From a virus: 39,407 nucleotides of DNA. Location: positions 1-39,407 of IMG/VR virus record IMGVR_UViG_3300009507_003338; one strand, given 5' to 3'. Every line of letters starts with the position of its first letter. Positions within the stretch are counted from its first letter, which is position 1. Shown piece by piece: positions 10,698 to 38,186 of this stretch. Both the position numbers and the translations under genes were made by a program. The notes beneath the pieces are model-generated. The model worked only from the letters and a program-made list of their open reading frames with translations, had not been told where the DNA came from and did no database searches.

Positions 10698-10700
10698 ATT

Positions 10701-10871: not shown

Positions 10872-10874
10872 GTT

Positions 10875-11060: not shown

Positions 11061-11063
11061 GTT

Positions 11064-11342
11064 ATGGCTAAAAAAGGTAAAATTGTACAAATGGGACAAC
11101 CCACACAGTCCCCAACTATGAACTTGGATGTTACAAAGTTAAAGAACGTAACGTGTCCACAATGTGAAGGTATCTTCTTCGATGAACTACAAATGTTCAA
11201 AGAAGTATCAGCAGTCCAATCACCAAATGGTCAGGCGTCTATGTTACCTATCCCTGTGGTAGTATGTAACAATTGTGGTACTGTTCACCCAAAATTCACT
11301 CCAAAGGAGTTGTTTGAAGATGGCGGAGACCAAGAAGGCTAA
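11064..11342 (+). CDS. Zinc-ribbon protein of unknown function
   Basis: A 92-residue protein with two Cys pairs, TCPQC (near residue 31) and CNNCG (near residue 69), framing about 35 residues, as in a zinc ribbon that would bind one zinc ion. The rest is polar. In T4 relatives small metal-binding proteins occur among transcription and replication factors, but no specific match is seen. Its 3' end overlaps the gp62 gene by 23 bases, which suggests coupled translation with the clamp loader. Confidence 0.65.
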   Translation: MAKKGKIVQMGQPTQSPTMNLDVTKLKNVTCPQCEGIFFDELQMFKEVSAVQSPNGQASMLPIPVVVCNNCGTVHPKFTPKELFEDGGDQEG

Positions 11343-19224: not shown

Positions 19225-19276
19225 TGGGGGTTTTGGAAACGATTCGTGTGTCTCAAAGAAAATTTTACAATTTACT

Positions 19277-20849: not shown

Positions 20850-22048
20850 ATATAGTTGTATATGCCGGTGATAACAAATACTATAAGGCACTTTTACCCA
20901 TAGTTTTAGAAATCAAAAAAAGAAATCACAATTTTTTATTTTTGTATAGTGAAGAAACACACTTAAAATACCCACACCAAAAAGAGTATTTTTCATATGA
21001 TGGTAGATTTCCACAAGAATTACAAGCAGTTGGTTCATCTACATTAGGGTTAAATTTACCATTTAAGCCGGATGTGTTGATATTGGCTAGAGAACGGTGG
21101 CAACCTGAACAATCAATTATTCGTGAATTTAAAGAGTCTTTTGGTGCAAAGATTTGTTTGGTAGAAGTAAGTAGTCATTTGTTAAATAACATTGAAAATA
21201 GGTTAGAAATGTTATCAAGAATGAACTATCCTCAAAATTTAGTTGACTATTTCTTTGAACATAGTGAATTTGCAAAAGAACGTAGACTTGATTGTATGGA
21301 GGAGTCATATCGTGACAAAATTGTGGTAGTGGGTAATCCAAGATTTTCAGATATCAAGTTACATAACAATCTTGAAAAATACAATATTAACCCTAATAAG
21401 AAAAAGATACTTTTTTGGGGAGTCATAAACACCACACGAAATATTGCATTTGATGCATTAAACGAATTGGCCAAAAAAACAAAAGACACTCATCAGATAT
21501 TTTACAAGTGCTATCCTGGAGAACCTTTAAACGAAAGATTTGCCCATCAATTCAACCCATTCGTAGTAGATGATGTTCAAGTTGTTTATGATGAAGATGA
21601 TATATTTGATATAGCATCCATTTGTGATACACATATTGGTCAAATCAGTAGTGTTTTTAACTTTGCCTTTTATTTTAATAAAAAAATTGTAAACTTGGAT
21701 AGTGTATGTAATGCATCCGAGCATATGAACAATATAAACACTTATATTTCAGAAACTGGAAATGGTGTGGAAGACTCCGCAAAATTTTGGATGAATATAT
21801 GGAAAATTCCCACGATTGAAGAGTTTATAAAATTTATCGATATTAGTAGATTATCTAAATTTAATGATACTAATTTGATAGTTATTAACAAAGTAATGGA
21901 AAATGCCATTCCATTTGATTGGGATATGAATTTCTTAAATGAGCCAAAAAAAGAATATGGTGATTTAATCACACTCTTTGATGAATATAAATTAGACGGT
22001 AAATCACCATCAAGAATACTAAACTTTTTAGAAGAAAAATATGATTAA
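20846..22048 (+). CDS. Putative GT-B glycosyl- or glycerophosphotransferase-like protein
   Basis: A 400-residue protein with a GT-B-like outline. The first half has MNIVVYAGDNKYYKALLPI and DVLILARERWQPEQ. The second half has KKILFWGVINTTRN, then HQIFYKCYPGEP and an IASICDTHIGQISSVFNFAF segment placed as the donor-binding region of CDP-glycerol transferase and UDP-GlcNAc-epimerase-like folds. No specific family is recognised. From about here to 26.9 kb the DNA looks more A+T-rich than the replication genes, which may mean separate acquisition. Confidence 0.55.
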   Translation: MNIVVYAGDNKYYKALLPIVLEIKKRNHNFLFLYSEETHLKYPHQKEYFSYDGRFPQELQAVGSSTLGLNLPFKPDVLILARERWQPEQSIIREFKESFGAKICLVEVSSHLLNNIENRLEMLSRMNYPQNLVDYFFEHSEFAKERRLDCMEESYRDKIVVVGNPRFSDIKLHNNLEKYNINPNKKKILFWGVINTTRNIAFDALNELAKKTKDTHQIFYKCYPGEPLNERFAHQFNPFVVDDVQVVYDEDDIFDIASICDTHIGQISSVFNFAFYFNKKIVNLDSVCNASEHMNNINTYISETGNGVEDSAKFWMNIWKIPTIEEFIKFIDISRLSKFNDTNLIVINKVMENAIPFDWDMNFLNEPKKEYGDLITLFDEYKLDGKSPSRILNFLEEKYD

Positions 22049-22712
22049 TACTTATAAATTCGGAAACGAGATTTTAACATTATCCTCTCAAGATACAGAA
22101 CATACTATTGGGCTGATTCAAAATGAATTATCAACTTATAACTCTATTTTTAATGTAGATTTTAAACCAGATGATGTGATATTAGATTTAGGTGCCAATT
22201 TGGGGATAATATCAATATTATTATCAAAAAAATTCCCATTCACTAAAATATATTCATTCGAGGCATCGCCAATCAATTATGATAACCTTGTTAAGAACAT
22301 TAATGATAATGGGTGCACAAACATAACTTCATTTAATCGTGCAGTATGGTCGAAAACGGGTGAAATATTAAAGATACCAACCTCACCAACAAATTCAGGT
22401 GGTTCATCTATATTTTACAAACCTGAATTTTATGAAAAATATCCAGTATCCGAGGTGGAGACCATATCTTTACCCGATATCTTTTTAGAAAATAATATCA
22501 AAAGTTGTAAGTTGATGAAAATTGATGTAGAGGGTTCTGAATATGAAATATTTAAAAATTTAACTTCCGAATATTATAGTAAAATAAATAATATTGCTAT
22601 TGAGTTTCACAGATGTGAGGCGGCCAAATCTTTTGATTTGCGGGGTAATCTTAAAATTAACAACATTCCTATTGTATGCGAATTCAACGCAGGAGGTGGT
22701 AAATTGGTGTAA
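22041..22712 (+). CDS. FkbM-family methyltransferase (2)
   Basis: A 223-residue SAM methyltransferase with FkbM motifs: DVILDLGANLGIISILLS (motif I), KIYSFEASPINYDNLVKN, a VETISLPDIF strand and LMKIDVEGSEYEIFKNL (FkbM signature). It is shorter than copy 1 and lacks the long N-terminal part. It overlaps the previous gene by eight bases and directly abuts the HAD phosphatase gene. The substrate is probably a sugar hydroxyl or carboxyl group; not determinable here. Confidence 0.85.
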   Translation: MINTYKFGNEILTLSSQDTEHTIGLIQNELSTYNSIFNVDFKPDDVILDLGANLGIISILLSKKFPFTKIYSFEASPINYDNLVKNINDNGCTNITSFNRAVWSKTGEILKIPTSPTNSGGSSIFYKPEFYEKYPVSEVETISLPDIFLENNIKSCKLMKIDVEGSEYEIFKNLTSEYYSKINNIAIEFHRCEAAKSFDLRGNLKINNIPIVCEFNAGGGKLV

Positions 22713-23006
22713 ATGAACATATATGTAGATATTGATGAAACAATATGTTTCTATGAGGGAGACCGTGATTATAATAAAGCAGTCCCAAATTTGGAAAATA
22801 TAAAAAAAATTCGTATATTGTACGAACAGGGACATACTATAACCTATTGGACTGCAAGAGGAAGTGTAACCGGACTTGATTGGTATGATGTAACAAAAAA
22901 ACAATTAGATGAGTGGGGATGTAAGTATCACCATTTAAGTGTTGGTGAGAAACCACCATACGATTTATTAATATGTGATAAAACAAAAAGAATAGAAGAG
23001 TTATGA
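22713..23006 (+). CDS. Short HAD-superfamily phosphatase
   Basis: A 97-residue capless HAD-like protein. Motif I is YVDIDETICFY (DxD nucleophile pair), motif II is ITYWTARGS, and the C-terminal YDLLICDKTK supplies the third/fourth acidic motif. Such mini-HADs occur in capsule and LPS gene clusters. Here it immediately precedes a NeuB-like synthase; it could remove a phosphate from the sugar before activation, as nonulosonate-9-phosphate phosphatases do, but that link is inferred from order only. It contains a promoter-like sequence at 22790-22821. Confidence 0.7.
   Translation: MNIYVDIDETICFYEGDRDYNKAVPNLENIKKIRILYEQGHTITYWTARGSVTGLDWYDVTKKQLDEWGCKYHHLSVGEKPPYDLLICDKTKRIEEL
22790..22821 (+). 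promoter_or_regulatory. Candidate intragenic promoter ahead of the NeuB-like gene
   Basis: TTTG at 22790-22793, a spacer of exactly 20 bases ending TTCG, and TATATTGT at 22814-22821, inside the HAD gene. Apart from the last two bases it matches the five intergenic promoters and could give the nonulosonate genes a separate transcript. Confidence 0.42.
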
Positions 23007-23854
23007 AAAAAACTTATATTATCGGCGAAATTGGTATCAACCACAATGGTGACCTTAACATCGCAAAAAAACTAATTGATATTGCAGCAGTTGCGGGTTG
23101 TGATGCAGTTAAATTTCAGAAACGAAATCCTGATGTATGTGTTCCGGAACATCAAAAAAATGTTATAAGAGACACCCCATGGGGACAAATGACATACTTG
23201 GATTACAAGTACAAAGTTGAGTTTGAAAAAGCTGAATATGATGAGATTGACCAATATTGTAAAGAGAAGGGAATCGCATGGTCAGCGTCGCCGTGGGATA
23301 TGGACTCTCTTGAATTCTTGAATGGTTATGATATTCCATTTATCAAACTACCATCAGCAATGTTGACAAATGATGAATTGCTTGAAGGTTGTGTTGCTAC
23401 CGGTAAACAAGTAATTTTCTCAACAGGTATGTCAACCGCAGAAGAAATTGACCACGCAGTTGATGTTCTTCGTAACGCCAAACTAAAATATAATAACCCT
23501 CATAAAATTGGATTGTTACATTGTAACTCAACGTATCCAGCTCCAATTGAAGAACTAAACTTGTCAGGCGTTCAAACATTAGCTGATATGTATCCTGATT
23601 TTGAGATTGGGTATTCGGGTCACGAGTTCCGATTGGGAACAACAGTAGCCGCAGTTTATTTGGGTGCTAGTATTATTGAACGACACATTACCCTTGATAG
23701 AACAATGTGGGGGTCAGACCATATGGCATCAGTTGAACCACAGGGTTTGATTAAATTAGTTAAAGGTATCCGTGAGTTAGAACTAGCGTATGGTGATGGT
23801 GTAATCAAAGTTACCGACTCTGAAGTTCCTGTTCGTAAAAAATTGAGAGGTTAA
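23003..23854 (+). CDS. NeuB-like nonulosonic acid synthase without SAF domain
   Basis: A 283-residue TIM-barrel enzyme of the NeuB/SpsE family, which condenses phosphoenolpyruvate with a hexosamine-derived aldose to give sialic-acid-type sugars. Seen: IIGEIGINHNGDL at the N-terminus, GCDAVKFQKRNPD, WSASPWDMDSLEFL, FIKLPSAMLTN, FSTGMSTAEEI, LLHCNSTYP, EIGYSGHE and ERHITLDRTMWGSDH. It stops at KVTDSEVPVRKKLRG, where usual NeuB proteins (about 340 residues) continue into a C-terminal antifreeze-like SAF domain; that domain is absent. It overlaps the HAD gene by four bases and the CMP-transferase gene by one. Confidence 0.9.
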   Translation: MKKTYIIGEIGINHNGDLNIAKKLIDIAAVAGCDAVKFQKRNPDVCVPEHQKNVIRDTPWGQMTYLDYKYKVEFEKAEYDEIDQYCKEKGIAWSASPWDMDSLEFLNGYDIPFIKLPSAMLTNDELLEGCVATGKQVIFSTGMSTAEEIDHAVDVLRNAKLKYNNPHKIGLLHCNSTYPAPIEELNLSGVQTLADMYPDFEIGYSGHEFRLGTTVAAVYLGASIIERHITLDRTMWGSDHMASVEPQGLIKLVKGIRELELAYGDGVIKVTDSEVPVRKKLRG

Positions 23855-24534
23855 TGAAATCAATCTCCGATGTTGTAGTAATTCTTCAGGCAAGGATGAA
23901 TTCACAAAGAGTCCCTCGTAAGATGTTAAGACCCTTTGCTGACTCAACCTTGTTTGAGATTGCTATAAATAAACTATTGGACTCAAAAATACTCCCTAAA
24001 GAAAACATATATGTTTCGGTCTACGAGGATGAGTTAAAAGAGATTGCAAACAAATACGGAGTTAACCTCTACCATCGAAGTGAGGAGTCCGCAAATAACG
24101 ACAACTCTCTCCAAAAAATATATGAATGGCATGACAAGCTCCCATTTAAATATGTCATAAAGATAAATGGGTGTTCTCCGTTGTTGAAAACGAAAACCAT
24201 TGATGGTTTTATAAATCAGTTTTTGGCGCAAGAAGAAGATAACTTGTTTGGAGTAATTCCCATGAAAGATTACTTTTGGAATAAAGAAGGTAAGTTGGTA
24301 ACTCCATGGCCAGAAGACCAAACAATTATGAACACTAAAGCAGTTGAAGTTACTTACAAAGCAGCCCACGTTTTATATGCATCTCGTATGGATTTAATAT
24401 CACAAAATATGTTTATGGGTGATTTCCAAAAAGAAGGTGGTATAAAATTATATCCAATGGATGAGTTGGAGTGTTTTGATATTGACTACGAATGGCAGTT
24501 TAAACTTGGCGAAACTTTATATGGAACTATTTAA
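23854..24534 (+). CDS. CMP-sugar (nonulosonate) cytidylyltransferase-like protein
   Basis: A 226-residue nucleotidyltransferase of the NeuA/SpsF/KdsB type. Signature: VVILQARMNSQRVPRKML, the CTP-binding start of the fold, then IKINGCSPLLKTKTIDGFI and, near the end, ECFDIDYEWQFKL, the DxD-containing metal-binding segment (FDIDYEWQF). It directly follows the NeuB-like synthase, so it should activate that product as a CMP-sugar. The overlap of 14 bases with the next gene suggests coupled translation. It lacks the extra hydrolase domain seen in some NeuA proteins. Confidence 0.85.
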   Translation: MKSISDVVVILQARMNSQRVPRKMLRPFADSTLFEIAINKLLDSKILPKENIYVSVYEDELKEIANKYGVNLYHRSEESANNDNSLQKIYEWHDKLPFKYVIKINGCSPLLKTKTIDGFINQFLAQEEDNLFGVIPMKDYFWNKEGKLVTPWPEDQTIMNTKAVEVTYKAAHVLYASRMDLISQNMFMGDFQKEGGIKLYPMDELECFDIDYEWQFKLGETLYGTI

Positions 24535-25189
24535 GTTCATACAAGGAAATACCCAATTACTCTCTGAAAACATATCCGACAAAAGGGTATTAGTATTAGG
24601 GTCAGGCCCATCTGCCAGAGAAGTAGATTGGGAATCTTATGATTGGGATGTTCTTGTAACTACAAGCTTTTTTTATTTAAATGATTTGGTCGTTTCTAAA
24701 AAACCAGTACACATAACCCTTTCAGACATTGTAGACTTGACCGACAATAGATTATTGAAATACTTGGATTCAAACCCAAGATGTACAATTGGATTTGAAC
24801 CAAAAGTACATCCATTTTACGAATCATCGGAGTTTAAAAATTTTGTGTCAAAATACAAATCAAGAATTATATTATATAATGTGACTGGTGGTAAAGAAGG
24901 AGTTGCTGGTAGAGTATGTTGGTTAGTTCTTGCCTGTGAACCTACACATCTAATGATTTGTGGAATTGATGGTGTTAGTAAAGATAGAACTTCAGACCCA
25001 CAAAACTATTTTAGAACACATATTGGAACGGTAGACCCATATCCATATGAAGATTATAAAAATTCTTTTGAAGAATTCGGAATGAATCTATATACAGCTG
25101 CTAATCAATTAAATGTGATTATTAAAAATCTTGGAATTGGCAAGTCGTATAATATGATTAGTAATATAAGTAAAAAGTTTGAAAAATGA
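24521..25189 (+). CDS. MptE/DUF115- or GT42-sialyltransferase-like protein
   Basis: A 222-residue protein. Near the N-terminus KRVLVLGSGPSAREVDWESY resembles the glycine loop and (E/D)ID pattern shared by DUF115/MptE-like proteins and GT42 sialyltransferases. A later VCWLVLACEPTHLMICGIDG matches their second conserved block. The start is the ATG at 24521; longer in-frame options fall inside the previous gene. Directly downstream of NeuB- and NeuA-like genes, a CMP-nonulosonate transferase is an attractive guess, but a pterin- or nucleotide-related activity is not excluded. Confidence 0.5.
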   Translation: MELFKFIQGNTQLLSENISDKRVLVLGSGPSAREVDWESYDWDVLVTTSFFYLNDLVVSKKPVHITLSDIVDLTDNRLLKYLDSNPRCTIGFEPKVHPFYESSEFKNFVSKYKSRIILYNVTGGKEGVAGRVCWLVLACEPTHLMICGIDGVSKDRTSDPQNYFRTHIGTVDPYPYEDYKNSFEEFGMNLYTAANQLNVIIKNLGIGKSYNMISNISKKFEK

Positions 25190-26247
25190 TTAGAATATTA
25201 CATATTGGAGCTTTAAACGGTAATCTTGGAGACAATATTGCTATAAAAAATGTACAAAAGTCATTTATGTCTCAACATAAAGATATTGAATTTGTTATGT
25301 TGAATGCACATGACCTTTGGAATATCCAAAACAATCCAGAGGTGGTTATTTCAACAATAAAACAAAACAATGTAGACGCGGTTCTAATAGGCGGTGGTGG
25401 GCTCGTTGAGTATCATTCATATCAGTCTCAACTTACAAAACAAAAGTTACCATTAAACGAACATATAATCAAAGAATGTGGTGTTCCTATATTTTTATAT
25501 GGTGTGGGTATAAACACTTTCAGAGGAAATTCCACTTGGCCAGATGATGTAAAATCCACAGTTAGGTCAATATTTTCTTCAGTAGCTGAATGTTCTTTGA
25601 GGAACGATGGTTCTATTGATAAGGCTAAGAAGTTAGATTTGTATTCTGATAAAATTATTGAGATACCAGACCCTGGATTATTACACCACCCATCTGCTGT
25701 AAATAAATCAATTATACGCACCGGAGTATTCCAACCGGCTGAAAATGGAAGTACGAAAATAAATAAAAATAGGTTTTTAGATTTTGAAGAATACATAAAA
25801 AATATTCCATCAAATTATAATTTACCTATATTTCCACATACAAAAAAGGATTTTGGGTTTAATGGAAAGTATTTGATAGGAACTAATACATTTTCACAAA
25901 TATCTCAATTTGAAAAAGTAGATGCTGTGTTACGAAGTTACTTTGATTATGATTATGTAGTAGCAATGAGAGGGCACGGTCAATTGGTATCAATAGGTAT
26001 GAATATTCCTGGTATATATTTATCAACACAAGACAAAGTAACACACTTTTCAGTAAACAATGGATTTTCTAATTATAACATTGATGTATTAGATTCCGAT
26101 TGGATTGCTAAATTTGAAGATATGATGTATCGCATTAAAAATGACCAATCATATATAACCGAGTGGTATCAGATACGAAACGAGAATATGAAAAAGTGGC
26201 AAACCCAAGATGCCGAATTTGTTCAAAAATGTTTATCCCATATTTAA
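25186..26247 (+). CDS. Polysaccharide pyruvyltransferase family protein
   Basis: A 353-residue protein of the polysaccharide pyruvyltransferase family, which adds pyruvate ketals from phosphoenolpyruvate to sugars; some members act as sialyltransferase-like enzymes. Seen: ILHIGALNGNLGDNIAI (NxGD motif), AVLIGGGGLVEY (GGGG loop), FLYGVGINTF, and YVVAMRGHGQLVSIGMNIP (RxHG motif). It overlaps the previous gene by four bases. It would add negative charge to the glycan, in keeping with the nonulosonate genes. Confidence 0.85.
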   Translation: MIRILHIGALNGNLGDNIAIKNVQKSFMSQHKDIEFVMLNAHDLWNIQNNPEVVISTIKQNNVDAVLIGGGGLVEYHSYQSQLTKQKLPLNEHIIKECGVPIFLYGVGINTFRGNSTWPDDVKSTVRSIFSSVAECSLRNDGSIDKAKKLDLYSDKIIEIPDPGLLHHPSAVNKSIIRTGVFQPAENGSTKINKNRFLDFEEYIKNIPSNYNLPIFPHTKKDFGFNGKYLIGTNTFSQISQFEKVDAVLRSYFDYDYVVAMRGHGQLVSIGMNIPGIYLSTQDKVTHFSVNNGFSNYNIDVLDSDWIAKFEDMMYRIKNDQSYITEWYQIRNENMKKWQTQDAEFVQKCLSHI

Positions 26248-26251
26248 TATT

Positions 26252-26950
26252 ATGAATTGTATTATTTGCAACAACGACTCCATACAAACACAAACTGATG
26301 TTTACAAGTGCCCTATGTGTTCTCACACATATGTTAACTTTTTAGGAGACCCCATCCAATATCATAAAGAATCATATCGAAAAAATAAGTTCGGAACTCG
26401 TGGTTCGGGTGAGATTGAAAATGATGTATTTACTGAAAATTTTCACAATTTTAGAAAGCCAATATGTGAAAAGAGGATACATAAAATAAAAGACCTGATT
26501 GATGATTCAACAAGTATGTTTGATATCGGCGCTGGCGGTGGTACTTTTTTGAATACTATTGGTGATATGATATCCCAAAAGGAATGCCAAGAGGTTAGTG
26601 ATATTTGTATTAAAAATCTTGAGTTGCAAGGATATACTACATATCGTGGTGATTTTTGTTCAATGGATATTCCAAATGAATATGACTTGGTGACCTGCTT
26701 CCATGTTTTAGAACACATTAAAAATTTAGATGCATTTGTAGACGCTGCATATAAAATAACAAAGAAGTATCTTGTTATAGAGGTTCCGGTTAATAGAAGT
26801 ATCCCACCACCAAATGAAAGATGGGATGGTCACTATCATTATTTTTCAAACCAATCTATGAGAGATTTGTTTTCTAATAAATTTGAAGTAATATCTATAC
26901 AAGAGGGAGTTCAGTCTCCAGCTATGTTGGTAACGCTAAAGAAGGTATGA
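26252..26950 (+). CDS. Class I SAM methyltransferase with N-terminal zinc ribbon
   Basis: A 232-residue protein. The first residues, MNCIICNN and YKCPMCSHTYV, give a four-Cys zinc ribbon. The methyltransferase fold follows: SMFDIGAGGGTFLNTI (motif I) and DLVTCFHVLEHIKNLD (the FHVLEH motif of the methyltransferase 23/type 12 group), then HYHYFSNQSMRDLF. Proteins of this layout are common in LPS and deoxysugar clusters (C-methyl- or O-methyltransferases). The start is the ATG at 26252, which places the first Cys pair at the N-terminus. Confidence 0.8.
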   Translation: MNCIICNNDSIQTQTDVYKCPMCSHTYVNFLGDPIQYHKESYRKNKFGTRGSGEIENDVFTENFHNFRKPICEKRIHKIKDLIDDSTSMFDIGAGGGTFLNTIGDMISQKECQEVSDICIKNLELQGYTTYRGDFCSMDIPNEYDLVTCFHVLEHIKNLDAFVDAAYKITKKYLVIEVPVNRSIPPPNERWDGHYHYFSNQSMRDLFSNKFEVISIQEGVQSPAMLVTLKKV

Positions 26951-28113
26951 AAAAAATAACATTTTGTATTCCAAGTAAATCAAACTTGAGATACTTAAAA
27001 ACAGCAATCCCATCTATTAGAGAAAATGCATATCGTAAAGACCACGACATTATTGTATTCGTGGATTCCGATGAAGATGGAACACTTGAGTGGTTAGAAG
27101 AAAATTCAGAATCACTTGGTGTAAAATACTATGTAAATCCTAACTTGGGAAACTCACTATATGGTATTGGAAAGGCATATGATTATTGCATCGATAAGTC
27201 GGAGACTCCAATCGTAATGATATTCCATGCTGATATGATTTTAGGTAAAGATGCAGACTATCACGCATTCAAACACCTAAAACCACTATCAGTCGTATGT
27301 TCAACTCGTATTGAACCACCACTTCACCCAAATGGTGGCGAAAAGATTTTAGAAGATTTTGGTTTGTATCCAGAAGAGTTTAAGGAAAGTGAGTTTGATT
27401 CATATGTAGATAATCTACTCACCCAAAATGATGGAACGACTACTGAAGGTATCTTTGCACCTTGGATGGTGTACAGGGAAGACATTCAGTCGATTGGTGG
27501 GCATGACCCTATTATGCATTCTTGTAGAGAGGATTCTGACCTATTCAATAGATTTGTACTAAATGGGTATTCATTAGTACAATCTTGGGATTCGTTGGTT
27601 TATCACTTTACAGGTCGTGGTGCTGGTTCATTTGATGGTGATGTTGAAAGACACGAACGATGGAAAGCTGATATGCATAACTCTACTAAAGAGTTTATTC
27701 GTAAGTGGGGGTCAAATGTAAAGCATGATAAAATGATGAATCCAATCATTCCCCACAAATACGATGTAGAGTTCAAGGTAACTAACGCAGATGCCAGAAT
27801 CATAAACATTTTAGAACCTTGGTGTAGTAGAATAACGGTAGATTGTTCTGAAGAAATTATCAATGACTATATTGAATTAGAACAACCAAACACTCAATTT
27901 GACTTGACTATGAGATTCAACACGAGTGGTGAGTCCGATATCATTGTAGAATTTGATGCTCGTTCACTCACTCAAAACTCATTTAACTTCATTCAACAAC
28001 TATCGGAAATCTTTGATTTTAATGAATTTGAGAGTGGTGAGTACGAATTCGACATATTTAAAATAAAGGTCAATAGAGTAAAACACTATGAAAACACCTT
28101 GATAAATCTATGA
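26947..28113 (+). CDS. GT2-family glycosyltransferase with C-terminal extension
   Basis: A 388-residue protein. The N-terminal 230 residues are GT2-like: KITFCIPSKSNLRYL, DIIVFVDSDEDGTLEWL, VMIFHADMILGKDADY (HAD in place of DxD), and a C-terminal GGHDPIMHSCREDSDLFNRF with the ED motif of GT2 catalytic bases. The last 130 residues, starting around RIINILEPW, form an unrelated alpha/beta part without recognised family. It is the last clear sugar gene; it is joined by four bases to a small phage gene, so the cluster runs into phage-type genes without a break. Confidence 0.75.
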   Translation: MKKITFCIPSKSNLRYLKTAIPSIRENAYRKDHDIIVFVDSDEDGTLEWLEENSESLGVKYYVNPNLGNSLYGIGKAYDYCIDKSETPIVMIFHADMILGKDADYHAFKHLKPLSVVCSTRIEPPLHPNGGEKILEDFGLYPEEFKESEFDSYVDNLLTQNDGTTTEGIFAPWMVYREDIQSIGGHDPIMHSCREDSDLFNRFVLNGYSLVQSWDSLVYHFTGRGAGSFDGDVERHERWKADMHNSTKEFIRKWGSNVKHDKMMNPIIPHKYDVEFKVTNADARIINILEPWCSRITVDCSEEIINDYIELEQPNTQFDLTMRFNTSGESDIIVEFDARSLTQNSFNFIQQLSEIFDFNEFESGEYEFDIFKIKVNRVKHYENTLINL

Positions 28114-30170: not shown

Positions 30171-30246
30171 AAGTAGGGTCGCCGTATATTTTAGAATTTA
30201 AGGTGATTGAGTATTGAATGTATTTTCAGGCGACCCTACTTTTTTT
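30171..30246 (+). terminator. Perfect 13-bp hairpin with 45-base loop and T-run
   Basis: AAGTAGGGTCGCC (30171-30183) pairs perfectly with GGCGACCCTACTT (30229-30241), followed by T to 30246. The G+C-rich stem stands out in A+T-rich DNA. It should terminate the lysis transcript. The loop is unusually long and could carry further structure. The adjacent span 30247-30307 has no gene. Confidence 0.75.
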
Positions 30247-30269
30247 CAATTAGTTACTTATTGGTTATC

Positions 30270-30307: not shown

Positions 30308-32236
30308 ATGAAAAAACTATCACTATTGTTCGTGACTTTGTTTGCGGCAATTAACACATTTGGCCAGAATGGGTCAAACGAAATCTTAACTCCACCAAAT
30401 ACTACGACGCCGTATATTTTGGTGGATACTTTGTTTACATTGGCAGACTATCCGAATGCTTATACTGATGTATACATTCACTTTGCCAATCCGACTGCTG
30501 ATGATATCAAAGCAGTTCAGTTCAGATTGTTTTACGACAATACAAACTTTACAACCCCAGAAATCTATTGGGGGCCAACGGCTACTTCGATAATCGACAA
30601 GTATGGTTCGTATTTTGCAAGTTCAGATTACATTAACGTAATCGCATCTTACACAGGTAACACTGCAAACTTCAATTGGGCCGATGGTGCTATGTTTAAA
30701 TTGAGATTATACCACACCACCACATATCAAGGTGTTGTTGACTCAATTGCAATCGCAGGTTCGACATCTTACAACAACCTTGCTACAAAAGACAATGGTG
30801 TGGATGTAACATTGGGTATGTACAACTATGGTGGTAATTTCCAAATGAACCCATTGACATTCCCAATCAAAGTTAGAAACGCAGATGGTTCAAACGCACA
30901 AGGTGTTTGGTTTACAACAAGTAAGAGATTGAAGAGTGACTCTCAAGGGTCTTGGACTGCTATTGTTTCTGACTCTACAAACTCAAATGGTTTGATGGAA
31001 GTTGTTCACCCAATTGATACAAACTTCTGGCATTTGAGAGTAGTTGCTCAAACTGATACAATGACCGATGGTTCTGCTCTATCAGTTGTCGATGCATACA
31101 AACTTGCTAACGCAGCTTCAATGCAAGACACCTTAACTGGTATTGAGTTGTACGAAGGTGATATCAACGAAAGTGATGACATCACTATTTCAGACGCATT
31201 TGCTATGTTTAATAGATTAGCATTGGGTTCTACAAACTGGAACTCTTTGTTTACTAACACATACAACGTATCAGTATTATGGCCAAGTGAATTCACTTCT
31301 GCTAATTCAGCAACTTCAGTTCCAACTTGGGCAAACACTCCGAGAGTATATACAATTGATACGATTGTGAATTCATTAGACTCATTGAAACCATACATCT
31401 ATGTAGTAGGTGATGCTACCACTACGGGTTATAACAACCCAGCAGTATTGATTGCTAAAATGGCCAACCCAGGTACAGGTACGGATTATATCCTTGACCC
31501 AGCAATCTATATGAACAACATTGATGATACAATCCAATTCCACATTCCAAAGTTGGTAATCACTTCAGATGAGACTATGGAAGTACCTGTTACAATGATG
31601 ACATTTGGTAATAACATTGGTGCTGCACAAATGGGTATTGAGTTTGATACATCTATCTTTAGATTTAACTCAATCAATATGGGTGATGCTGCTTCCAAGT
31701 GGACTTCTATGTTGAGTGTACAAGAGAATACAGTATTCTGGGCTGGACACGAAGACAAGATGAACCCAAGTGTGATTACTGATATGACTACAACATTTAC
31801 ATTTGTATTTGATGTAATCAACCCAATCGGATGGCAGACATCTCCGTTGAAAATCTTCAACAAAGCTGCTGGTGATGAGAACGCTTATGACTTAAACATC
31901 AAACCATCACCAAACGATGGTTCGGTAGTTAACAAACGTGACATTGATGCCGACTTGTTAGATTTGATGCAAGGTTTCAAGGTATATCCTAACCCAACTT
32001 CAGACGCATATGACAACTGGGTATTCATCGAACACCACAACGACCTTGAAGGTTCAACCCTTAACGCAATGGTATACGATATGTTTGGTAGAGAAGTGAT
32101 GAACTACTCTGACATTATCTACGAACGTGGTTTCCAATTCCACGGATTTAGAATGACTGACTTACCAGAAGGTATGTATTTAGTTAGATTGGTTACGCCG
32201 GATAGAGAGAAGTTTTATAGAATCGTAAAATATTAA
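30308..32236 (+). CDS. Secreted T9SS cargo with cohesin/dockerin-like regions
   Basis: A 642-residue protein. It has a signal peptide (MKKLSLLFVTLFAAINTFG) with Q20 at the predicted +1 site. Residues about 30-160 and 400-540 are beta-rich and look cohesin-like (AVQFRLFYDN; VPVTMMTFG, then QMGIEFDTSIFRF). Between them lies a dockerin-like half repeat, GDINESDDITISDAFAMFNR (from G284). The last 84 residues (559-642) form a T9SS type A sorting domain: VYPNPTSDAY, YDMFGREV, then LPEGMYLVRLVTP and a basic end. The domain is known to direct export by the host T9SS, often with cell-surface attachment. TAGGAG precedes the start. A virion adhesin is an alternative. Confidence 0.85.
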   Translation: MKKLSLLFVTLFAAINTFGQNGSNEILTPPNTTTPYILVDTLFTLADYPNAYTDVYIHFANPTADDIKAVQFRLFYDNTNFTTPEIYWGPTATSIIDKYGSYFASSDYINVIASYTGNTANFNWADGAMFKLRLYHTTTYQGVVDSIAIAGSTSYNNLATKDNGVDVTLGMYNYGGNFQMNPLTFPIKVRNADGSNAQGVWFTTSKRLKSDSQGSWTAIVSDSTNSNGLMEVVHPIDTNFWHLRVVAQTDTMTDGSALSVVDAYKLANAASMQDTLTGIELYEGDINESDDITISDAFAMFNRLALGSTNWNSLFTNTYNVSVLWPSEFTSANSATSVPTWANTPRVYTIDTIVNSLDSLKPYIYVVGDATTTGYNNPAVLIAKMANPGTGTDYILDPAIYMNNIDDTIQFHIPKLVITSDETMEVPVTMMTFGNNIGAAQMGIEFDTSIFRFNSINMGDAASKWTSMLSVQENTVFWAGHEDKMNPSVITDMTTTFTFVFDVINPIGWQTSPLKIFNKAAGDENAYDLNIKPSPNDGSVVNKRDIDADLLDLMQGFKVYPNPTSDAYDNWVFIEHHNDLEGSTLNAMVYDMFGREVMNYSDIIYERGFQFHGFRMTDLPEGMYLVRLVTPDREKFYRIVKY

Positions 32237-32245
32237 GAGGTTAAT

Positions 32246-32632
32246 ATGCAAGAAGAAATCAAAGAAGGAATGTCAAACCTTAAAAAAGGTATTATTGGGT
32301 TTGCCGGTACAGCAGTAGCTGGAGTAGGAACATTTCTAATGACTCAATTTAATTCTATGTTAGGAATCGAAGAAGAGTCATCAGCACCAACGGAAGTAGT
32401 TGCACCAGTTGAGAACAATAACTCACAAAGTGTTAATGTTACTGGTCCAGAGATTATTATCAATATCCCTGAACAAAAGGCAGCACCTGCTCCTACACGA
32501 ACTATCATCAGAGAGACTGTTAAGGAAGTTCCTGCAGCACCAGTTGAGGTAGTAGAAGAGAAGCCAGAAACTCCAATGGAAAGAATGGCAAGATTGAAGA
32601 AGGAACGTGCAGCACAAAACGAGGGTAAGTAA
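32246..32632 (+). CDS. Single-span membrane protein with Pro/Glu-rich tail
   Basis: A 128-residue protein. A hydrophobic segment (GIIGFAGTAVAGVGTFLMTQ, residues about 15-35) follows a short charged N-terminus. The rest is extended and rich in Pro, Glu and Val (PEIIINIPEQKAAPAP, VKEVPAAPVEVVEEKPE), ending in a basic helix MERMARLKKER. A tail of this kind could span the periplasm, as in TonB-like or tether proteins, but no family is recognised. It stands one base ahead of the CsgG-like gene, which suggests a shared task at the envelope. Confidence 0.6.
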   Translation: MQEEIKEGMSNLKKGIIGFAGTAVAGVGTFLMTQFNSMLGIEEESSAPTEVVAPVENNNSQSVNVTGPEIIINIPEQKAAPAPTRTIIRETVKEVPAAPVEVVEEKPETPMERMARLKKERAAQNEGK

Positions 32633-32633
32633 A

Positions 32634-33377
32634 ATGAGAACAAGAAGAGATGAAATTTTAGAGTTGATTTTTGCACCTCTTGGGTTACTATTTGTTGTAG
32701 TTGGATTGTTGTTCGTAGGTGGATTCGCCACCTCATGTTCATCTTCAGTTGGTGTAGTTCAATACCAAGCTGACTTTGAAAAAGCAGACCAACCCCTTAA
32801 TAGCATTGCACCTTATACTGGTGAAAAGCAAATCGTACAACTTGCTAAACTAAACGTAAACAAAGAACTTTGGGATATGTTCCCAGAGTTGAGAGATAAA
32901 AGAGTTGGTTTGGGTGTATCAAATCGTATCATTGAGAACTTTGAAGTTACTGGTAGATTTGCATACGCTGAAGAAAAAGAAGCCATTCAAAATCAAATGT
33001 TAGATGCTTGGGAAACCGAACTTAATGGTTTGGGTGATGGGCAAACACAATTGAAGATGGAAGGTATTGCTCTACCAAAATATGTTGTTTACGCAGAAAT
33101 CTACGACTTTGCAGTTTCTTATGGAGAAGATTATAACAAAGGTAAGGTTCAGAAGACCAATACCACGATTATGGGTATTCAGATTAGAATGACAAGTGTT
33201 GATAACGGACAATATATTGTGGCAAGTGGACAAGGTACTGCAACTCAAGTAGGTGAAGGTATGTTCAAAAACCCACAAATGGGATTTGATAACTCAACAG
33301 TCGGAATCGCTACCCAACGTGCATTGGAGGTCGCTACAATGAACCTCGTGAAACGTATGGAAGCATATGGATGGTAA
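32634..33377 (+). CDS. CsgG-like outer-membrane lipoprotein
   Basis: A 247-residue protein. The N-terminal hydrophobic segment ends in a lipobox-like FATSC, giving Cys35 as the lipidated residue, and no acidic surface-export signal follows it. Residues about 150-245 match the CsgG family: LPKYVVYAEIYDFAVSYG, TTIMGIQIRMTSVDNGQYIV, then FDNSTVGIATQRALEVATM and LVKRM. CsgG of curli systems forms a nonameric outer-membrane pore. Family length is about 270. The start at 32634 is taken because the longer frame runs into the preceding gene. No curlin (CsgA/B) repeats are seen nearby. From memory, csgG-like genes have been reported in other marine phages. Confidence 0.75.
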   Translation: MRTRRDEILELIFAPLGLLFVVVGLLFVGGFATSCSSSVGVVQYQADFEKADQPLNSIAPYTGEKQIVQLAKLNVNKELWDMFPELRDKRVGLGVSNRIIENFEVTGRFAYAEEKEAIQNQMLDAWETELNGLGDGQTQLKMEGIALPKYVVYAEIYDFAVSYGEDYNKGKVQKTNTTIMGIQIRMTSVDNGQYIVASGQGTATQVGEGMFKNPQMGFDNSTVGIATQRALEVATMNLVKRMEAYGW

Positions 33378-34893
33378 AAGGTGGTTAGTATTAGTTTTAC
33401 TACTTATAGGGTTTAAGTCATTTGGTCAGTCGTACCAATACACTTATACTGACCCTTGTACTGGTATTCCTAATACTGTAACTATCACTCAACCACTTGG
33501 TTCGGTAACACTTTTTTACGCCGGTCAATGGCAAACATTTACAGCGACCCAACTTCAGTCTGGTGGATATGAAGCTTGGGTCGCTTCTATTAATGCACAA
33601 TTCCCACCGGGTTCTAACCCTTGTGCTGGAGCTGGAGCACAAACATCTACATCATCAAATTCATCAACGGCATCTAATACAGCAATGAATGTATCAAGTA
33701 TCGTTGGTATTGCGGCTTCGTTGGGGTCTCAAACATCATCTACAACAATAACACCACCATCAGGTGGAACAAGTACAGGAGGTTCAAATGGTAATTCTAA
33801 CAACTCTGGTGGTAGTGGTTCTTCTACTGGCACTAATAACGGCGGGAATTCTTCAGGTTCTTCAACATCAGGAGGAACGAGTGGGTCGAGCTCTGGGTCA
33901 TCTTCTAATGGGGGTAACAGTGGTAATGGGGGCTCTTCCGGCAGTTCTTCTGGTTCTTCAAGTGGTGGGTCTTCTACCGGAGGAAGTGGTTCATCCGGCT
34001 CAAGTGGAGGTTCAAGTGGAAGCTCTGGCTCCGGAGGTGGAGGCACGGGTGGAAGTGGTGAACCATCTGGTGGAGTAAGTGGTACTGATGGGGGTGGTGT
34101 ATCCTCTGGTGGAACTGATAGTGGTAGTGGAACATCTGAAGGTGCAGTAGGTGGTACTGATAATACAACCACAGCAAGTGGTGGTGACTCTGAAGGTGGA
34201 GATGATGGTGGGGGTGGTGGCTCCGGTGGGTCTAAAAAGAAATCTAAACAAGAAAAGATTGGTAGAGGTGCATTGATTGGCGCGGGTGACTTTGTAGTAA
34301 TCAGAAATGGTAGTGACTACAAAGCACAGGGTAATGATAATTTTAAATTCAATATGTCCTTAACTCACGTTAATACCAAACAAACTTTCATCAAAGGTAT
34401 CAACTTCAACTACACCACAGGTGAGAATGTTCTTAACTCAACTCTATATGGTTCATATAAGAATAATGGATTTATGGGTGTATTCTCAAACTCCACAATG
34501 ACTAACTTTAAAACCGATGTTTTCAATACCACTACGGCAATGGTAACTCAAAAGTTGTGGATTGTAACTCCAATGTTAGGAACTAACCTTACATTTGGTA
34601 AGATTGGAACAAGTGACTTTCAGAACTGGTCAATTATTGCTGGTGGATTTACTAACTTTAATAACGATTGGTTTTTGAATGGTAATGTAATGTTACTTGG
34701 AATCTATTCTCCTTACATATTTTATTATGAGGGGCAGTGGTATAAGAGTGGATTGTTATTCGTACCATTGGCTAATTTGGATATAAAGTTGACTGACACA
34801 TTTAAGTGGAGTTTATCATTTGGTGGAGCATACCAATGGAAAGCAGATATTCTAAACTTTCAGATTTCAACAGGAACAAAGATATTGTTATGA
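33367..34893 (+). CDS. Secreted Gly/Ser-rich protein with barrel-like C-terminus
   Basis: A 508-residue protein. The signal peptide (MDGKRWLVLVLLLIGFKSFG) leaves Q21 at +1. Residues 21-85 form a small domain with two Cys. Residues about 88-289 are almost entirely Gly, Ser, Thr and Asn. Residues 290-508 show alternating strands typical of an outer-membrane barrel (TFIKGINFNYTTG, STLYGSYKNNGFMGVFSNS, WSLSFGGAYQW) and end ISTGTKILL. The low-complexity part could be a flexible surface-exposed linker. It overlaps the CsgG-like gene by 11 bases and the next gene by four. No family is recognised. Confidence 0.7.
   Translation: MDGKRWLVLVLLLIGFKSFGQSYQYTYTDPCTGIPNTVTITQPLGSVTLFYAGQWQTFTATQLQSGGYEAWVASINAQFPPGSNPCAGAGAQTSTSSNSSTASNTAMNVSSIVGIAASLGSQTSSTTITPPSGGTSTGGSNGNSNNSGGSGSSTGTNNGGNSSGSSTSGGTSGSSSGSSSNGGNSGNGGSSGSSSGSSSGGSSTGGSGSSGSSGGSSGSSGSGGGGTGGSGEPSGGVSGTDGGGVSSGGTDSGSGTSEGAVGGTDNTTTASGGDSEGGDDGGGGGSGGSKKKSKQEKIGRGALIGAGDFVVIRNGSDYKAQGNDNFKFNMSLTHVNTKQTFIKGINFNYTTGENVLNSTLYGSYKNNGFMGVFSNSTMTNFKTDVFNTTTAMVTQKLWIVTPMLGTNLTFGKIGTSDFQNWSIIAGGFTNFNNDWFLNGNVMLLGIYSPYIFYYEGQWYKSGLLFVPLANLDIKLTDTFKWSLSFGGAYQWKADILNFQISTGTKILL
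33628..34230 (+). repeat. Low-complexity Gly/Ser/Thr coding repeat
   Basis: About 600 bases made mostly of GGT/GGA/TCT/TCA/AGT/ACA-type codons encode the Gly/Ser-rich stretch. The repeats are irregular and vary at synonymous sites, with no fixed unit. The G+C content is locally higher than the surroundings. On the opposite strand the same composition creates a long Pro/Glu-rich frame that is not a gene. Confidence 0.75.
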
Positions 34894-36041
34894 GAAAGTT
34901 TATTTTAAATCTTATTTTTATACTGTGGGTATCAATTGGTGGATATTCTCAAACCATTACCCTTACTCCTATTGGTGATGCAAGTGTTAATAGTATTGAT
35001 ATTGAGGTAGAACATTTTGTTAATTATGTTCCTAACCATTCTATCTACTCTCAAAATTACTCACCATTATCAACGGCAGGTACTTCGGTTAATGTTGGTG
35101 ATGATAGTAATGTGGGCCCATTCAACATAGGATTTAACTTTGAATTCTACGGACAAACCTTTTCACAATTTAGAATATGTACTAACGGATTTATAACATT
35201 TGGTAATACCGCAGGAACATATTCTCCAACTTCATTTCCATCATCGGCAAATCCAAATGGAGTAGTTGCAGCATATTGGACTGACCTCTACCCATCATCG
35301 GGTTATTATATAAGATATCAGACTGTTGGAACTGCGCCAAATAGACAACTGATTGTAAGTGCCCACTTAACCTATTACTCAAATAGAAATGCTTGGGTGG
35401 ATTATCAAATCGTATTGTTTGAAGGAACAAATAAGATATGGACTACAATCACATCACAAGGTTGGACTCCAACTGCAACTCAAGGTGTGGAAAACCATAA
35501 TGGTACTTTAGCAGCAACTCCAACGGGTAGAAACTTGGCAGGATTTAACGGAGCAGGTTCAACATACGAATATGCACCTCAAGCAGCAATTACCCAATGG
35601 GAATCACAAGGAGTTAAAATAACAAATACAGCAGGTCAAGTAACATTCTCTAATAATTCAAATTGGGATTATAGAGTTACTTTTAGTGTGAGTAATGAAC
35701 CAAGTATTATGACTACTGCTGAAATGAATTACCTAATGTATAAAAAGGCTGGATTAAGTCTTTTAACTGATTGGGATTTTTACACTTGTGATATAGATGA
35801 TACTGGTGGATTTGATTGGGATGATATCAAATATGGATATGATTTACTAAATGGTGGACTATACTATAAGAGTTATATATTTACCCAATCACAAAAAACA
35901 ACCATAGAATCCAATCCAACTACTAATTATTATAGTACATATCCACCAACCCAAAGTGGAACATTTTCAAATCAAAATCAGTTTTATATAATGGCAACTG
36001 GAAAACATAAAACAATTATAAGTGGGGAGAAGATACAATGA
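34890..36041 (+). CDS. Secreted adhesin-like protein with dockerin-like motif
   Basis: A 383-residue protein. The signal peptide (MRKFILNLIFILWVSIGGYS) leaves Q21 at +1. Residues about 65-240 resemble the extracellular module common in Bacteroidota surface proteins: FNIGFNFEFYGQTFSQFRI, CTNGFITFGNT, GVVAAYWTDLYP, YQIVLFEGTNKIW, TQGVENHNGT. Near the C-terminus CDIDDTGGFDWDDIKYGYDL is a dockerin-like half repeat similar to that in the T9SS cargo upstream. There is no T9SS sorting domain. The ATG at 34890 is chosen because it gives the signal peptide and an ATGA overlap. Binding to glycan or host surface is inference. Confidence 0.7.
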   Translation: MRKFILNLIFILWVSIGGYSQTITLTPIGDASVNSIDIEVEHFVNYVPNHSIYSQNYSPLSTAGTSVNVGDDSNVGPFNIGFNFEFYGQTFSQFRICTNGFITFGNTAGTYSPTSFPSSANPNGVVAAYWTDLYPSSGYYIRYQTVGTAPNRQLIVSAHLTYYSNRNAWVDYQIVLFEGTNKIWTTITSQGWTPTATQGVENHNGTLAATPTGRNLAGFNGAGSTYEYAPQAAITQWESQGVKITNTAGQVTFSNNSNWDYRVTFSVSNEPSIMTTAEMNYLMYKKAGLSLLTDWDFYTCDIDDTGGFDWDDIKYGYDLLNGGLYYKSYIFTQSQKTTIESNPTTNYYSTYPPTQSGTFSNQNQFYIMATGKHKTIISGEKIQ

Positions 36042-36436
36042 ATCCAATCGCATGTTATTTCGTAGCTTCAGTATTATCTTTAGCATCAATCAAAGATATA
36101 CCTGAAGAAAAGTTTACTTTTGGTGTAAGACAAATCACCGAAGAAATCGTAGGTCAAGAAGCACCTCTTTGTCCTGGTGGTTCACCAATCTATGTGGTAG
36201 TAAATGAAATCAAAGCACCAACTCAAGGTATTCGTGTTGGCCCTTTTGAATTCAAACAAAAAAAGACATTTGTAACTGTGACCGTAACCAAAGATGGTAA
36301 AGAATCGGTTGGAGTGGGAACTGCTAAAATGAATGTAGCAGCAACTTTACTTCAATTGCAAGATGAAAATTTACCATTTGAACAAACAGAATTCTCAATT
36401 GCTGTAAAAAGAGCGATTGAAGATGCTCTTCACTAA
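36038..36436 (+). CDS. Small CsgG-fold-like protein
   Basis: A 132-residue protein with a weakly hydrophobic N-terminus (MNPIACYFVASVLSLAS). The C-terminal 80 residues follow the same order as the CsgG-like protein upstream: PIYVVVNEIKAP, then an FVTVTVTKDGKESVGVGTA strand pair, and PFEQTEFSIAVKRAIEDAL matching the helix FDNSTVGIATQRALEVA. It may be a half-size relative that caps or modulates the pore. The relation is by pattern only. It overlaps the previous gene by four bases. Whether it is exported is unclear. Confidence 0.5.
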   Translation: MNPIACYFVASVLSLASIKDIPEEKFTFGVRQITEEIVGQEAPLCPGGSPIYVVVNEIKAPTQGIRVGPFEFKQKKTFVTVTVTKDGKESVGVGTAKMNVAATLLQLQDENLPFEQTEFSIAVKRAIEDALH

Positions 36437-36461
36437 TACTTATATAATAGGAGTTATTAAT

Positions 36462-37538
36462 ATGAGAAGGTTATTGTTATTGGTCACGATGTTAGTTACG
36501 GTTACAACATCAGCGCAAATTAAAGATTTTTTTAAGTATTCAACGATATATGGAACGGCTATCATAAATCAGCCGGTACAAGACCCATATGGTGATTGGT
36601 TTATTCCACGGGATTGGACAATACAGCCCCAACCAATTCAAAATCAGAATGAATATAATTACAATTATTCATTGGGTATTCGTAAGATTGCTAGATTTAA
36701 ATATGAAAATAGACCATCCATTTTTTACGATGGTACTGAAAAAAACATTTCAACTTCAACTAACATAGGCGCAGTTAGTGGTTGGGAGTATTTGTTTCAT
36801 AGTGAGTTAGCACGACAAATTGGGCAAACATATGTAAACAACAATTACTTTTTAAGACATTTGGGTAAACACCATATTGTAAAGGTAGAACGCTTTGATA
36901 ACACATTTGTAAATTTGAACTATTCCGCTGCTGATGTAAGATATAGACAATCAATTGGTAGTAAGTTTAATTTATCATTTGGTGTAAACTTCCGTGACCA
37001 TATGTACTACGGAATTGCTCCAATTAAATTTTATTTAGATGATGGGGGTTCTTGGTTGGCACTTGCATACGAGGCAGGATACCAAGACTATTCAGTAGAT
37101 GTAGAATATAATGATGGTACTTCATACACAGAATACCATTGGATGAACGATGGTGGTGATACCATCGCTCTTTCTGACTGGGAGTTTAGAAGATTAAAGT
37201 GGGATGAGATTGCAGGTGACTTTAATAGTATGATGTTAGATTCTATTGGTATACTTGGAACATTTACGCCTGTAATTGGGCTGGACTTCTATCATAGAAC
37301 GGAAGAATTGTGGGTACACGTTTGGGGAAGTGTTCTTCCATATAATTTACATATTTATGGTAATCCAGACTACTTCTATGGAGTAGATAACGGATATTGG
37401 GTTGATTATCAAATAGGGTTAGTATCCGGAGTGTGGTTAACAAAGAAACTTGGAATCTATTTAGAAGTATCAAACCAAAGATTTTGGGATAGGGAACTTT
37501 ACAGTGTAAAAGCTGGACTTAATTATCAGTTTAAATAA
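36462..37538 (+). CDS. Secreted outer-membrane-type protein, probably beta-barrel
   Basis: A 358-residue protein. The signal peptide (MRRLLLLVTMLVTVTTSA) leaves Q19 at +1. The mature part has many alternating aromatic strands (VNLNYSAADVRYRQS, FNLSFGVNFRDHMYYG, LGIYLEVSNQRFW) and ends SVKAGLNYQFK, where a terminal aromatic strand resembles the closing strand of outer-membrane barrels. The ATG at 36462 has AGGAG eight bases upstream; an in-frame start at 36417 lacks this and lies within the previous gene. No family is recognised. It could be an added porin-like protein or a surface receptor mask. Confidence 0.65.
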   Translation: MRRLLLLVTMLVTVTTSAQIKDFFKYSTIYGTAIINQPVQDPYGDWFIPRDWTIQPQPIQNQNEYNYNYSLGIRKIARFKYENRPSIFYDGTEKNISTSTNIGAVSGWEYLFHSELARQIGQTYVNNNYFLRHLGKHHIVKVERFDNTFVNLNYSAADVRYRQSIGSKFNLSFGVNFRDHMYYGIAPIKFYLDDGGSWLALAYEAGYQDYSVDVEYNDGTSYTEYHWMNDGGDTIALSDWEFRRLKWDEIAGDFNSMMLDSIGILGTFTPVIGLDFYHRTEELWVHVWGSVLPYNLHIYGNPDYFYGVDNGYWVDYQIGLVSGVWLTKKLGIYLEVSNQRFWDRELYSVKAGLNYQFK

Positions 37539-37539
37539 A

Positions 37540-37815
37540 ATGGCAAAAGAATTAAACGAAGACACAGGATTTAATGTATCGATTAAAACATTAATTGGTA
37601 TTGGAGTAGGTATTGCTACTGTTGTAGGTATGTGGTATGCTCTTCAAGATGACATTCAAGAAGCAAAAGAACTTCCAGTACCAGTTATTAGTAGAACCGA
37701 ATACGAACTCAAGGATGAATTAGTACGCCAGACCATTATGGATACGCAAGATGATGTTGAAGATATTAAAGAACAATTAGATAAAATCGAAGACCGATTG
37801 TTTGAATCACGATGA
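37540..37815 (+). CDS. Single-span membrane protein with coiled coil
   Basis: A 91-residue protein. One transmembrane segment (LIGIGVGIATVVGMWYAL, residues about 18-36) is followed by an acidic region and a heptad-like coiled coil (MDTQDDVEDIKEQLDKIEDRL). The layout resembles small phage spanin- or holin-type proteins and phage membrane organisers, but no specific family fits. It starts one base after the barrel-like gene and overlaps the next gene by four. Confidence 0.6.
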   Translation: MAKELNEDTGFNVSIKTLIGIGVGIATVVGMWYALQDDIQEAKELPVPVISRTEYELKDELVRQTIMDTQDDVEDIKEQLDKIEDRLFESR

Positions 37816-38186
37816 AAAAGTTGTTAGTCATATTATCTTTACTTTGGGTTACCACATCATTTGGCCAATCTTTACCAAAAAGCTTATCACCCGAAACATT
37901 GAATCGAGCAATTAATACTGGTGTTGTGATTGTTGAGTTTGATGCAAAATTTGCTAAACCATTCGCAGATTGGGATGAGATTGAAGATTGTAAATATTAT
38001 AGAGTTGATATTGAAAAATATCCTGAACTAAAAGACAAATGGAAAATTAGAACAGTACCAACCATTATATTGTTTCATAATGGAAATAAACATAAAACTT
38101 GGAAAGCCAACATTATGTTGGAGTTGGATGTTACTGCAAAAGAAATCCAAGAAGAAATTGAAGAGTTACTATCATCACAATTTTAA
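37812..38186 (+). CDS. Exported thioredoxin-fold protein lacking the CxxC site
   Basis: A 124-residue protein. The signal peptide (MKKLLVILSLLWVTTSFG) leaves Q19 at +1. The fold follows thioredoxin: VVIVEFDAKFAKPFADW takes the place of VEFWAxWCGPC, so both active-site cysteines are missing. Next come YYRVDIEKYPELKDKWKIRT and VPTIILFHNGNKH, with the cis-proline motif VPT intact. A redox role is therefore unlikely; it may be a chaperone or structural subunit, as T7 uses thioredoxin without redox chemistry. It is the last gene of the envelope operon. Confidence 0.7.
   Translation: MKKLLVILSLLWVTTSFGQSLPKSLSPETLNRAINTGVVIVEFDAKFAKPFADWDEIEDCKYYRVDIEKYPELKDKWKIRTVPTIILFHNGNKHKTWKANIMLELDVTAKEIQEEIEELLSSQF

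Follow-up and report, generated by a model that had tools for sequence, protein, structure and literature searches.

A possible cellulosome-like assembly in phages of Bacteroidota: a conserved cassette for a putative scaffold protein with a type IX secretion sorting domain, exchangeable dockerin-tailed heads and a CsgG-fold protein

Phage proteins with sorting signals of the bacterial type IX secretion system (T9SS) have been described: Cryophage carries three variable type A T9SS cargo genes and is thought to hijack the system of its host (PMC7468147), and crAss-BACON cluster 2 phages encode T9SS sorting-domain proteins (PMC6949934); use of T9SS by a phage, which a preliminary description of the DNA studied here had called unusual, is thus uncommon but has precedents. 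Pelagimyophages possess CsgG and CsgF in a gene cluster of unknown role, for which uptake or "sibling capture" has been proposed (PMC7029224).

The window, i.e. the whole stretch of 39,407 bases analyzed here, came from a viral record of IMG/VR. It contains an uninterrupted ORF of 642 aa with an ATG start (30308-32236, plus strand), designated P1, which is the first gene of a cassette, P1 to P6. The features of this region are as follows.

30171..30247, plus strand: probable intrinsic terminator between an 87-aa holin-like ORF and P1 (folding energy, T run)
30308..32236, plus strand: P1, putative scaffold protein of 642 aa (relatives in 108 IMG/VR contigs and phage immuto)
30308..30367, plus strand: Sec-type signal peptide of P1, residues 1-20 (heuristic, 42/42 relatives)
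30395..30850, plus strand: cohesin 1 of P1, residues 30-181 (modelled fold, 1aoh)
30851..31237, plus strand: Ig-like X module and putative dockerin of P1, residues 182-310 (EF-hand loops, relatives, 3kcp)
31514..31945, plus strand: cohesin 2 of P1, residues 403-546 (PF00963, 6kgd)
31982..32233, plus strand: T9SS type A C-terminal sorting domain of P1, residues 559-642 (TIGR04183; 8qb1, Z 10.4)
32246..32632, plus strand: P2, small membrane protein with one N-terminal hydrophobic helix and a proline-rich remainder (topology predicted from sequence)
32634..33377, plus strand: P3, CsgG-fold exported protein of 247 aa (Foldseek, modelled fold)
33367..34893, plus strand: P4, with a signal peptide, a Cys-containing N domain, a Gly/Ser linker and a probable outer-membrane beta-barrel (alignment)
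34890..36041, plus strand: P5, exported protein with a variable N-terminal head (about residues 21-234) and a conserved X-dockerin-like tail (residues 235-372) (homology, relatives)
36038..36436, plus strand: P6, small protein homologous to the C-terminal half of P3 (profile match)

The hairpin upstream of P1 had a folding energy of -30 kcal/mol (shuffle mean -13.2, z -5.75) and was followed by a T run, suggesting that P1 begins a transcription unit; together with the close spacing or overlap of the six genes, it also suggests that they form one operon. Scanning for sigma-70-type promoters was uninformative, the sites being rarer than in shuffles, and the T4 late promoter TATAAATA was rejected as a candidate, with four sites in the window, equal to chance expectation, and none near P1. 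A bacterial origin of the DNA was ruled out by the T4-type DNA polymerase, clamp and clamp loader encoded on the same window, by the IMG/VR virus record and by the presence of the cassette in cultured immuto phages (see below). Elsewhere in the window, two tandem genes (1268-2807) each had a match (175 and 152 bits) to phrog_1384, a Mom-like family of DNA modification, and represent a duplicated base-modification gene. Sugar genes form a long run at 14580-28113, with two matched glycosyltransferases; visual inspection added other transferases and methyltransferases, together with a NeuB/NeuA-like pair (23003-24534). These genes may allow the phage to produce or alter a sugar of its own surface or DNA.

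In PHROGs, no family was found for P1, P2, P4 and P5, and P3 had one weak match (E 0.03). In a viral structure library, the closest match to P1 was an uncultured phage protein named "Secretion system C-terminal sorting domain", and the next two agreed in length and identity with gp14 and gp15, the immuto pair. The preliminary description had proposed a type A T9SS domain at the C-terminus of P1 and a Sec signal peptide at its front, to be checked by profile search and structure prediction, and both proposals were borne out. TIGR04183 matched with 35.3 bits (E 8e-9, cut-off 23) over positions 1-71 of the 72 in the model, spanning residues 559-641 of 642, i.e. the very C-terminus, and Pfam PF18962 scored 25.6 bits, just below its gathering score of 27. 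Among 43 diverse relatives of P1, matches at E<=0.01 were obtained in 43/43 with PF18962 and in 42/43 with TIGR04183, and in a control set of 14 named genomes TIGR04183 matched in two, one of them above the cut-off. A chance match or frame artefact was ruled out by the TIGR04183 score and the matches across relatives. The domain was present on P1 in 94 of the 108 distinct IMG/VR contigs and in phage immuto, and was kept in relatives down to about 25% identity. An AlphaFold2 model of P1, built on an alignment of the 43 relatives from viral contigs, had a mean pLDDT of 83.6, with values of about 85-92 across the T9SS domain. Residues 555-642 of this model fitted the T9SS C-terminal domain of mirolase (8qb1) with Z 10.4 and an rmsd of 2.1 A over 78 residues; since the DUF3244 protein 4g5a scored the same, the fold by itself is not diagnostic. 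With our own heuristic, a signal peptide with the cleavage point MKKLSLLFVTLFAAINTFG|Q was predicted for P1, and this type was found in 42/42 relatives vs 68/400 unrelated phage ORFs. A sorting domain together with a signal peptide points most naturally to export by the T9SS of the host, and P1 is very probably a genuine T9SS cargo.

The preliminary description had missed two cohesins and a putative dockerin in P1 as well as the conserved cassette, which are more informative than the T9SS tag. Cohesin 2 matched PF00963 with 27.0 bits (gathering score 24.1), and its modelled fold agreed with 6kgd (Z 15.1); modelled cohesin 1 superimposed on the CipA cohesin 1aoh with Z 14.1 and an rmsd of 2.9 A over 142 residues. 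A cohesin Pfam match was obtained in 39/43 relatives of P1. The helical segment between the cohesins contains two dockerin-like calcium-type loops, D250-D262 (DTMTDGSALSVVD at 250) and D285-D296 (DINESDDITISD at 285), and an EF-hand loop was detected in 34/42 relatives vs 0.4 expected in shuffles. Dockerin_1 (Pfam) matched 9/43 relatives; the P1 of the window gave no match, with both loops visible. The Coh-X-Doc chain of 3kcp covered modelled residues 34-381 with Z 13.2 and an rmsd of 11 A over the whole chain, so that this arrangement is only suggested for P1. As modelled, P1 is scaffoldin-like, with the predicted order signal peptide, cohesin 1, Ig-like X module, dockerin, cohesin 2 and T9SS type A C-terminal domain.

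Relatives of the cassette were drawn from IMG/VR using P1, and using P3 (317 loci confirmed, 80 kept), which gave the 108 distinct contigs. P2 was present in 105 of these, P3 in 106, the N domain of P4 in 98 and P5 in 86; P6-type profile matches, which include P3, occurred in 106. The order P1-P2-P3-P4-P5-P6 recurred, with P2 between P1 and P3, and a holin-like gene often adjoined. For P3, the best Foldseek matches were all CsgG (E 1.5e-7, Z 13.0), with a moderate model (pLDDT 66.9), long strands at residues 150-168, 171-188 and 194-210, and an identity to CsgG of just 10-15% or so. Pfam CsgG was matched at E<=0.1 by 3/39 relatives of P3 (best 7.8e-4) and not by the P3 of the window, and searching solved structures by sequence with P3 and P6 gave nothing usable. 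The P6 profile matched P3 with 35.7 bits (E 7e-12). The signal peptide of P4 was predicted in 41/41 members by our heuristic, and its barrel is a prediction from sequence.

Scanning bacterial genomes with P3 yielded five MAG contigs, of which two (L149 and L150) carry most of the phage cassette and are therefore probably binned phage DNA. The seemingly chromosomal Ignavibacteriales MAG contig L147 has a tandem pair of P3-like genes (9974-11277) and no P1; it is possible that a pair of this kind was the cellular source of P3 and P6. Downstream of P6 in the window, a gene for a protein with a signal peptide and a probable outer-membrane barrel (36417-37538) was observed, as was one directly after the cassette for an exported thioredoxin-like protein (37812-38186; PF00085, 26.6 bits over 23.5), which could help disulphide formation in exported proteins. 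Neither was found among the fetched relatives.

The tail of P5 was homologous to residues 215-348 (X-dockerin) of P1, and all 61 members had a signal peptide by our heuristic. EF-hand loops like DVNGDGKITISD were found in 37/61 P5 proteins vs 0.2 expected; the loop in the P5 of the window, DIDDTGGFDWDD, was poor. Pfam assignment of heads in 51 members revealed 13 C-type lectin, 12 PA14, 5 GEVED, 4 GLEYA and 2 laminin-G domains, and the head in the window had no Pfam match. From such assignments, the heads look to be of carbohydrate-binding or adhesive type. Pairs of P1 that were 95-99% identical had P5 heads only 25-30% identical, whereas heads about 80% identical were found beside P1 proteins merely 30% identical. 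The P5 heads move independently of the scaffold.

A homologous cassette, gp13-gp19, was found in Flavobacterium phage vB_FspM_immuto, whose host is Flavobacterium sp. LMO8; in the phage collection searched, P1 or P3 was present only in immuto records. The products in these records are designated hypothetical proteins, C-type lectins or proteins with a cohesin domain, and no system is given a name. In immuto and two uncultured relatives (L126 and L132), the P1/P5 chain consists of three consecutive ORFs, each with a signal peptide, i.e. 1) gp13, head-X-dockerin, 2) gp14, cohesin-X-dockerin, and 3) gp15, cohesin-T9SS domain, and only the last has the export tag. If gp13 and gp14 are to share the fate of gp15, a non-covalent link is needed, and a cohesin-dockerin link would be the simplest way for the three ORFs to act together. 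This split is the strongest indirect support for P1 being a scaffold.

Seven contigs with a full-length P1, of the type seen in L128-L138, L142 and MAG contig L148, represent a sister clade in which P1 stops after the last cohesin and has no tag. The gene after it encodes a small lipoprotein whose C-terminal half is CTD-like; one of these lipoproteins scored 27.0 bits against PF18962. Lipoproteins with a lipid-anchored T9SS-type domain were observed beside the tag-less P1 in L131 (7431-7802), L136 (254-622) and L137 (7230-7598). It is possible that the tag-less P1 is anchored on the surface via another route. The earlier proposal that infection is tied to T9SS-positive hosts gained no support: no sign that P1 is essential was seen, and this clade has a scaffold without the tag, with a lipoprotein adjoining. 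The absence of PorU from the Flavobacterium MAG of L148 had prompted the idea that hosts of this clade are without T9SS, and this idea was ruled out by the SprA, GldM and 20 type A sorting-model matches of the same MAG. A Bacteroidetes MAG with the tagged cassette has SprA, GldM and PorU, an assignment that rests on binning. Additional type B-tagged cargo was present in 5/24 related records, some with a second type A tag. Proteins with type B (CHU_C) tags and SHLAGGDIQYRYIGDSTG-like starts were observed in L033 (3199-4800) and L153 (896-2950), and a second type A cargo of about 520 aa, with beta-helix-like repeats (RYVRIEYGG) and unlinked to the cassette, in L151 (2314-3870) and L152 (1241-2815).

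P1 would be exported by Sec, recognised through its C-terminal domain by the host T9SS and anchored outside the infected cell. There, proteins with dockerin tails would be held by its cohesins; P5 would be the main partner, and a second P1 might also be bound through its dockerin. The exchangeable carbohydrate-binding or adhesive head of P5 would thereby be displayed on the infected cell. P5, with a signal peptide and lacking a T9SS tag, may pass the outer membrane together with P1 or by way of P3/P4. P2, P3, P4 and P6 may be accessory envelope proteins, perhaps serving P5 as a channel in the outer membrane or as a platform for its assembly. The likely purpose would be altered binding by the surface of the infected cell, either with host glycans coated so as to hinder superinfection or the re-adsorption of progeny, or with neighbouring cells held near; superinfection exclusion, progeny protection and the holding of neighbouring cells all fit, and we make no choice among them.

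We consider it moderately probable that the host T9SS anchors a phage scaffold holding exchangeable adhesin heads during infection, because 1) the T9SS domain is significant and conserved across relatives, 2) two cohesins and the Coh-X-Doc arrangement appear in a confident model of P1, 3) the P5 tail is homologous to the X-dockerin of P1 and has EF-hand loops, 4) the heads are modular, the gene order is recurrent and signal peptides occur on all P1, P4 and P5 examined, and 5) the cultured host of immuto is a Flavobacterium and the MAG with the tagged cassette has T9SS components. Against this stand the lack of a Dockerin_1 match in the P1 of the window, the poor loop of its P5, the tag being the least conserved domain of P1 and the sister clade without a tag. 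Cohesin and dockerin modules are found outside cellulosomes as well, so binding between those of P1 and P5 is putative; a cohesin-dockerin assembly of the two proteins is, in our judgment, fairly probable. The complete picture, a cellulosome-like phage assembly of T9SS-anchored scaffoldin, dockerin-tailed lectins and a CsgG-type outer-membrane complex, widespread in phages of Bacteroidota, is put forward tentatively.

The CsgG fold of P3 and the export of P4 and P5 without a T9SS tag would also suit a type VIII-like (curli-like) system, in which P3 and P6 form the channel, P5 or P1 the fibres and the T9SS tag a secondary anchor, working like the CsgGF clusters that pelagimyophages carry (PMC7029224). 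However, family scans gave no match to CsgA, CsgB, CsgE or CsgF, the tag is on P1 in nearly all members, and at such low identity to CsgG the pore-forming hairpins of P3 are putative; we regard such a system as unlikely. P1 and P5 could instead be fibres or decorations of the virion, with heads binding the next host and the T9SS-like domain merely a structural beta-sandwich. Receptor-binding proteins typically have variable lectin-like heads, the fold of the domain is common to DUF3244 and other Ig-like domains, and in one clade a CTD-like domain is on a separate lipoprotein. However, proteins of virions assembled in the cytoplasm are normally without the Sec-type signal peptide found on every P1, P4 and P5 examined, the fold of P3 is that of an outer-membrane secretion protein, the cassette is not part of a tail module, its neighbours being lysis genes in the window and, in immuto, genes of nucleotide metabolism and for nucleases, and the P1 domain passes the sequence model TIGR04183, beyond fold alone, which makes a virion role quite unlikely. 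A reading of the domain as a relic without function, left over from the capture of a host gene, is very improbable: the domain is the most diverged in P1 (47-66% vs 65-81% for the cohesins and X-dockerin) and one clade has lost it from P1, but it is intact in 94 of the 108 contigs, even at about 25% identity, dN is below dS where measurable, and related records carry the extra tagged cargo described above.

Bacteroidota are a dominant aquatic and gut phylum, and their phages are poorly annotated. If display by the host T9SS is true, viruses use cohesin-dockerin chemistry together with the host type IX system to re-dress the host surface, and the outer surface of the host is remodelled by a set of genes not recognised before, which occurs in no fewer than 108 viral contigs as well as in a cultured phage whose host is known. 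Two matters would then become testable: the means by which phages whose hosts possess a T9SS block superinfection or hold on to cells nearby, and the reason that phages have CsgG-type proteins at all. A demonstrated cohesin-dockerin assembly would raise the finding beyond a variant of known phage T9SS cargo. In the open-access literature, searched incompletely, no earlier report of a phage cohesin-dockerin system was found; phage-encoded T9SS cargo is already known, and the conserved scaffold-and-head cassette is, as far as checked, the new part.

Compared with known systems, P1 resembles T9SS type A cargo (TIGR04183/PF18962) such as mirolase of Tannerella forsythia in its Sec signal peptide and in a C-terminal domain of about 80 residues with motifs and fold in common, but it is phage-encoded and its body is a predicted cohesin-dockerin scaffold instead of an enzyme. 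With Cryophage and crAss-BACON cluster 2, it shares phage-encoded sorting-domain proteins and variable cargo, PA14 included; in those phages the tag is on separate endoglucanase, GH39 and PA14 genes, whereas here it is on a conserved scaffold and the variable heads have dockerin tails and no tag. The pelagimyophage CsgG-CsgF cluster (PMC7029224) is similar in having a phage CsgG-fold protein within a conserved cluster of envelope proteins, but here no CsgF was seen, a T9SS scaffold and swappable heads are present, and the phages are those of Bacteroidota, not of SAR11. The gp13-gp19 cassette of immuto differs from that of the window in that P1 is split in two and the head gene is upstream. Clostridial scaffoldins (CipA, ScaA; Coh-X-Doc) have in common with P1 a cohesin, an X-like module, a second cohesin and, as predicted for P1, a dockerin, a surface anchor and dockerin-tailed partners, here P5 by predicted binding, whereas P1 is phage-borne and would be anchored by T9SS, and its partners would be lectin or adhesin heads rather than cellulases.
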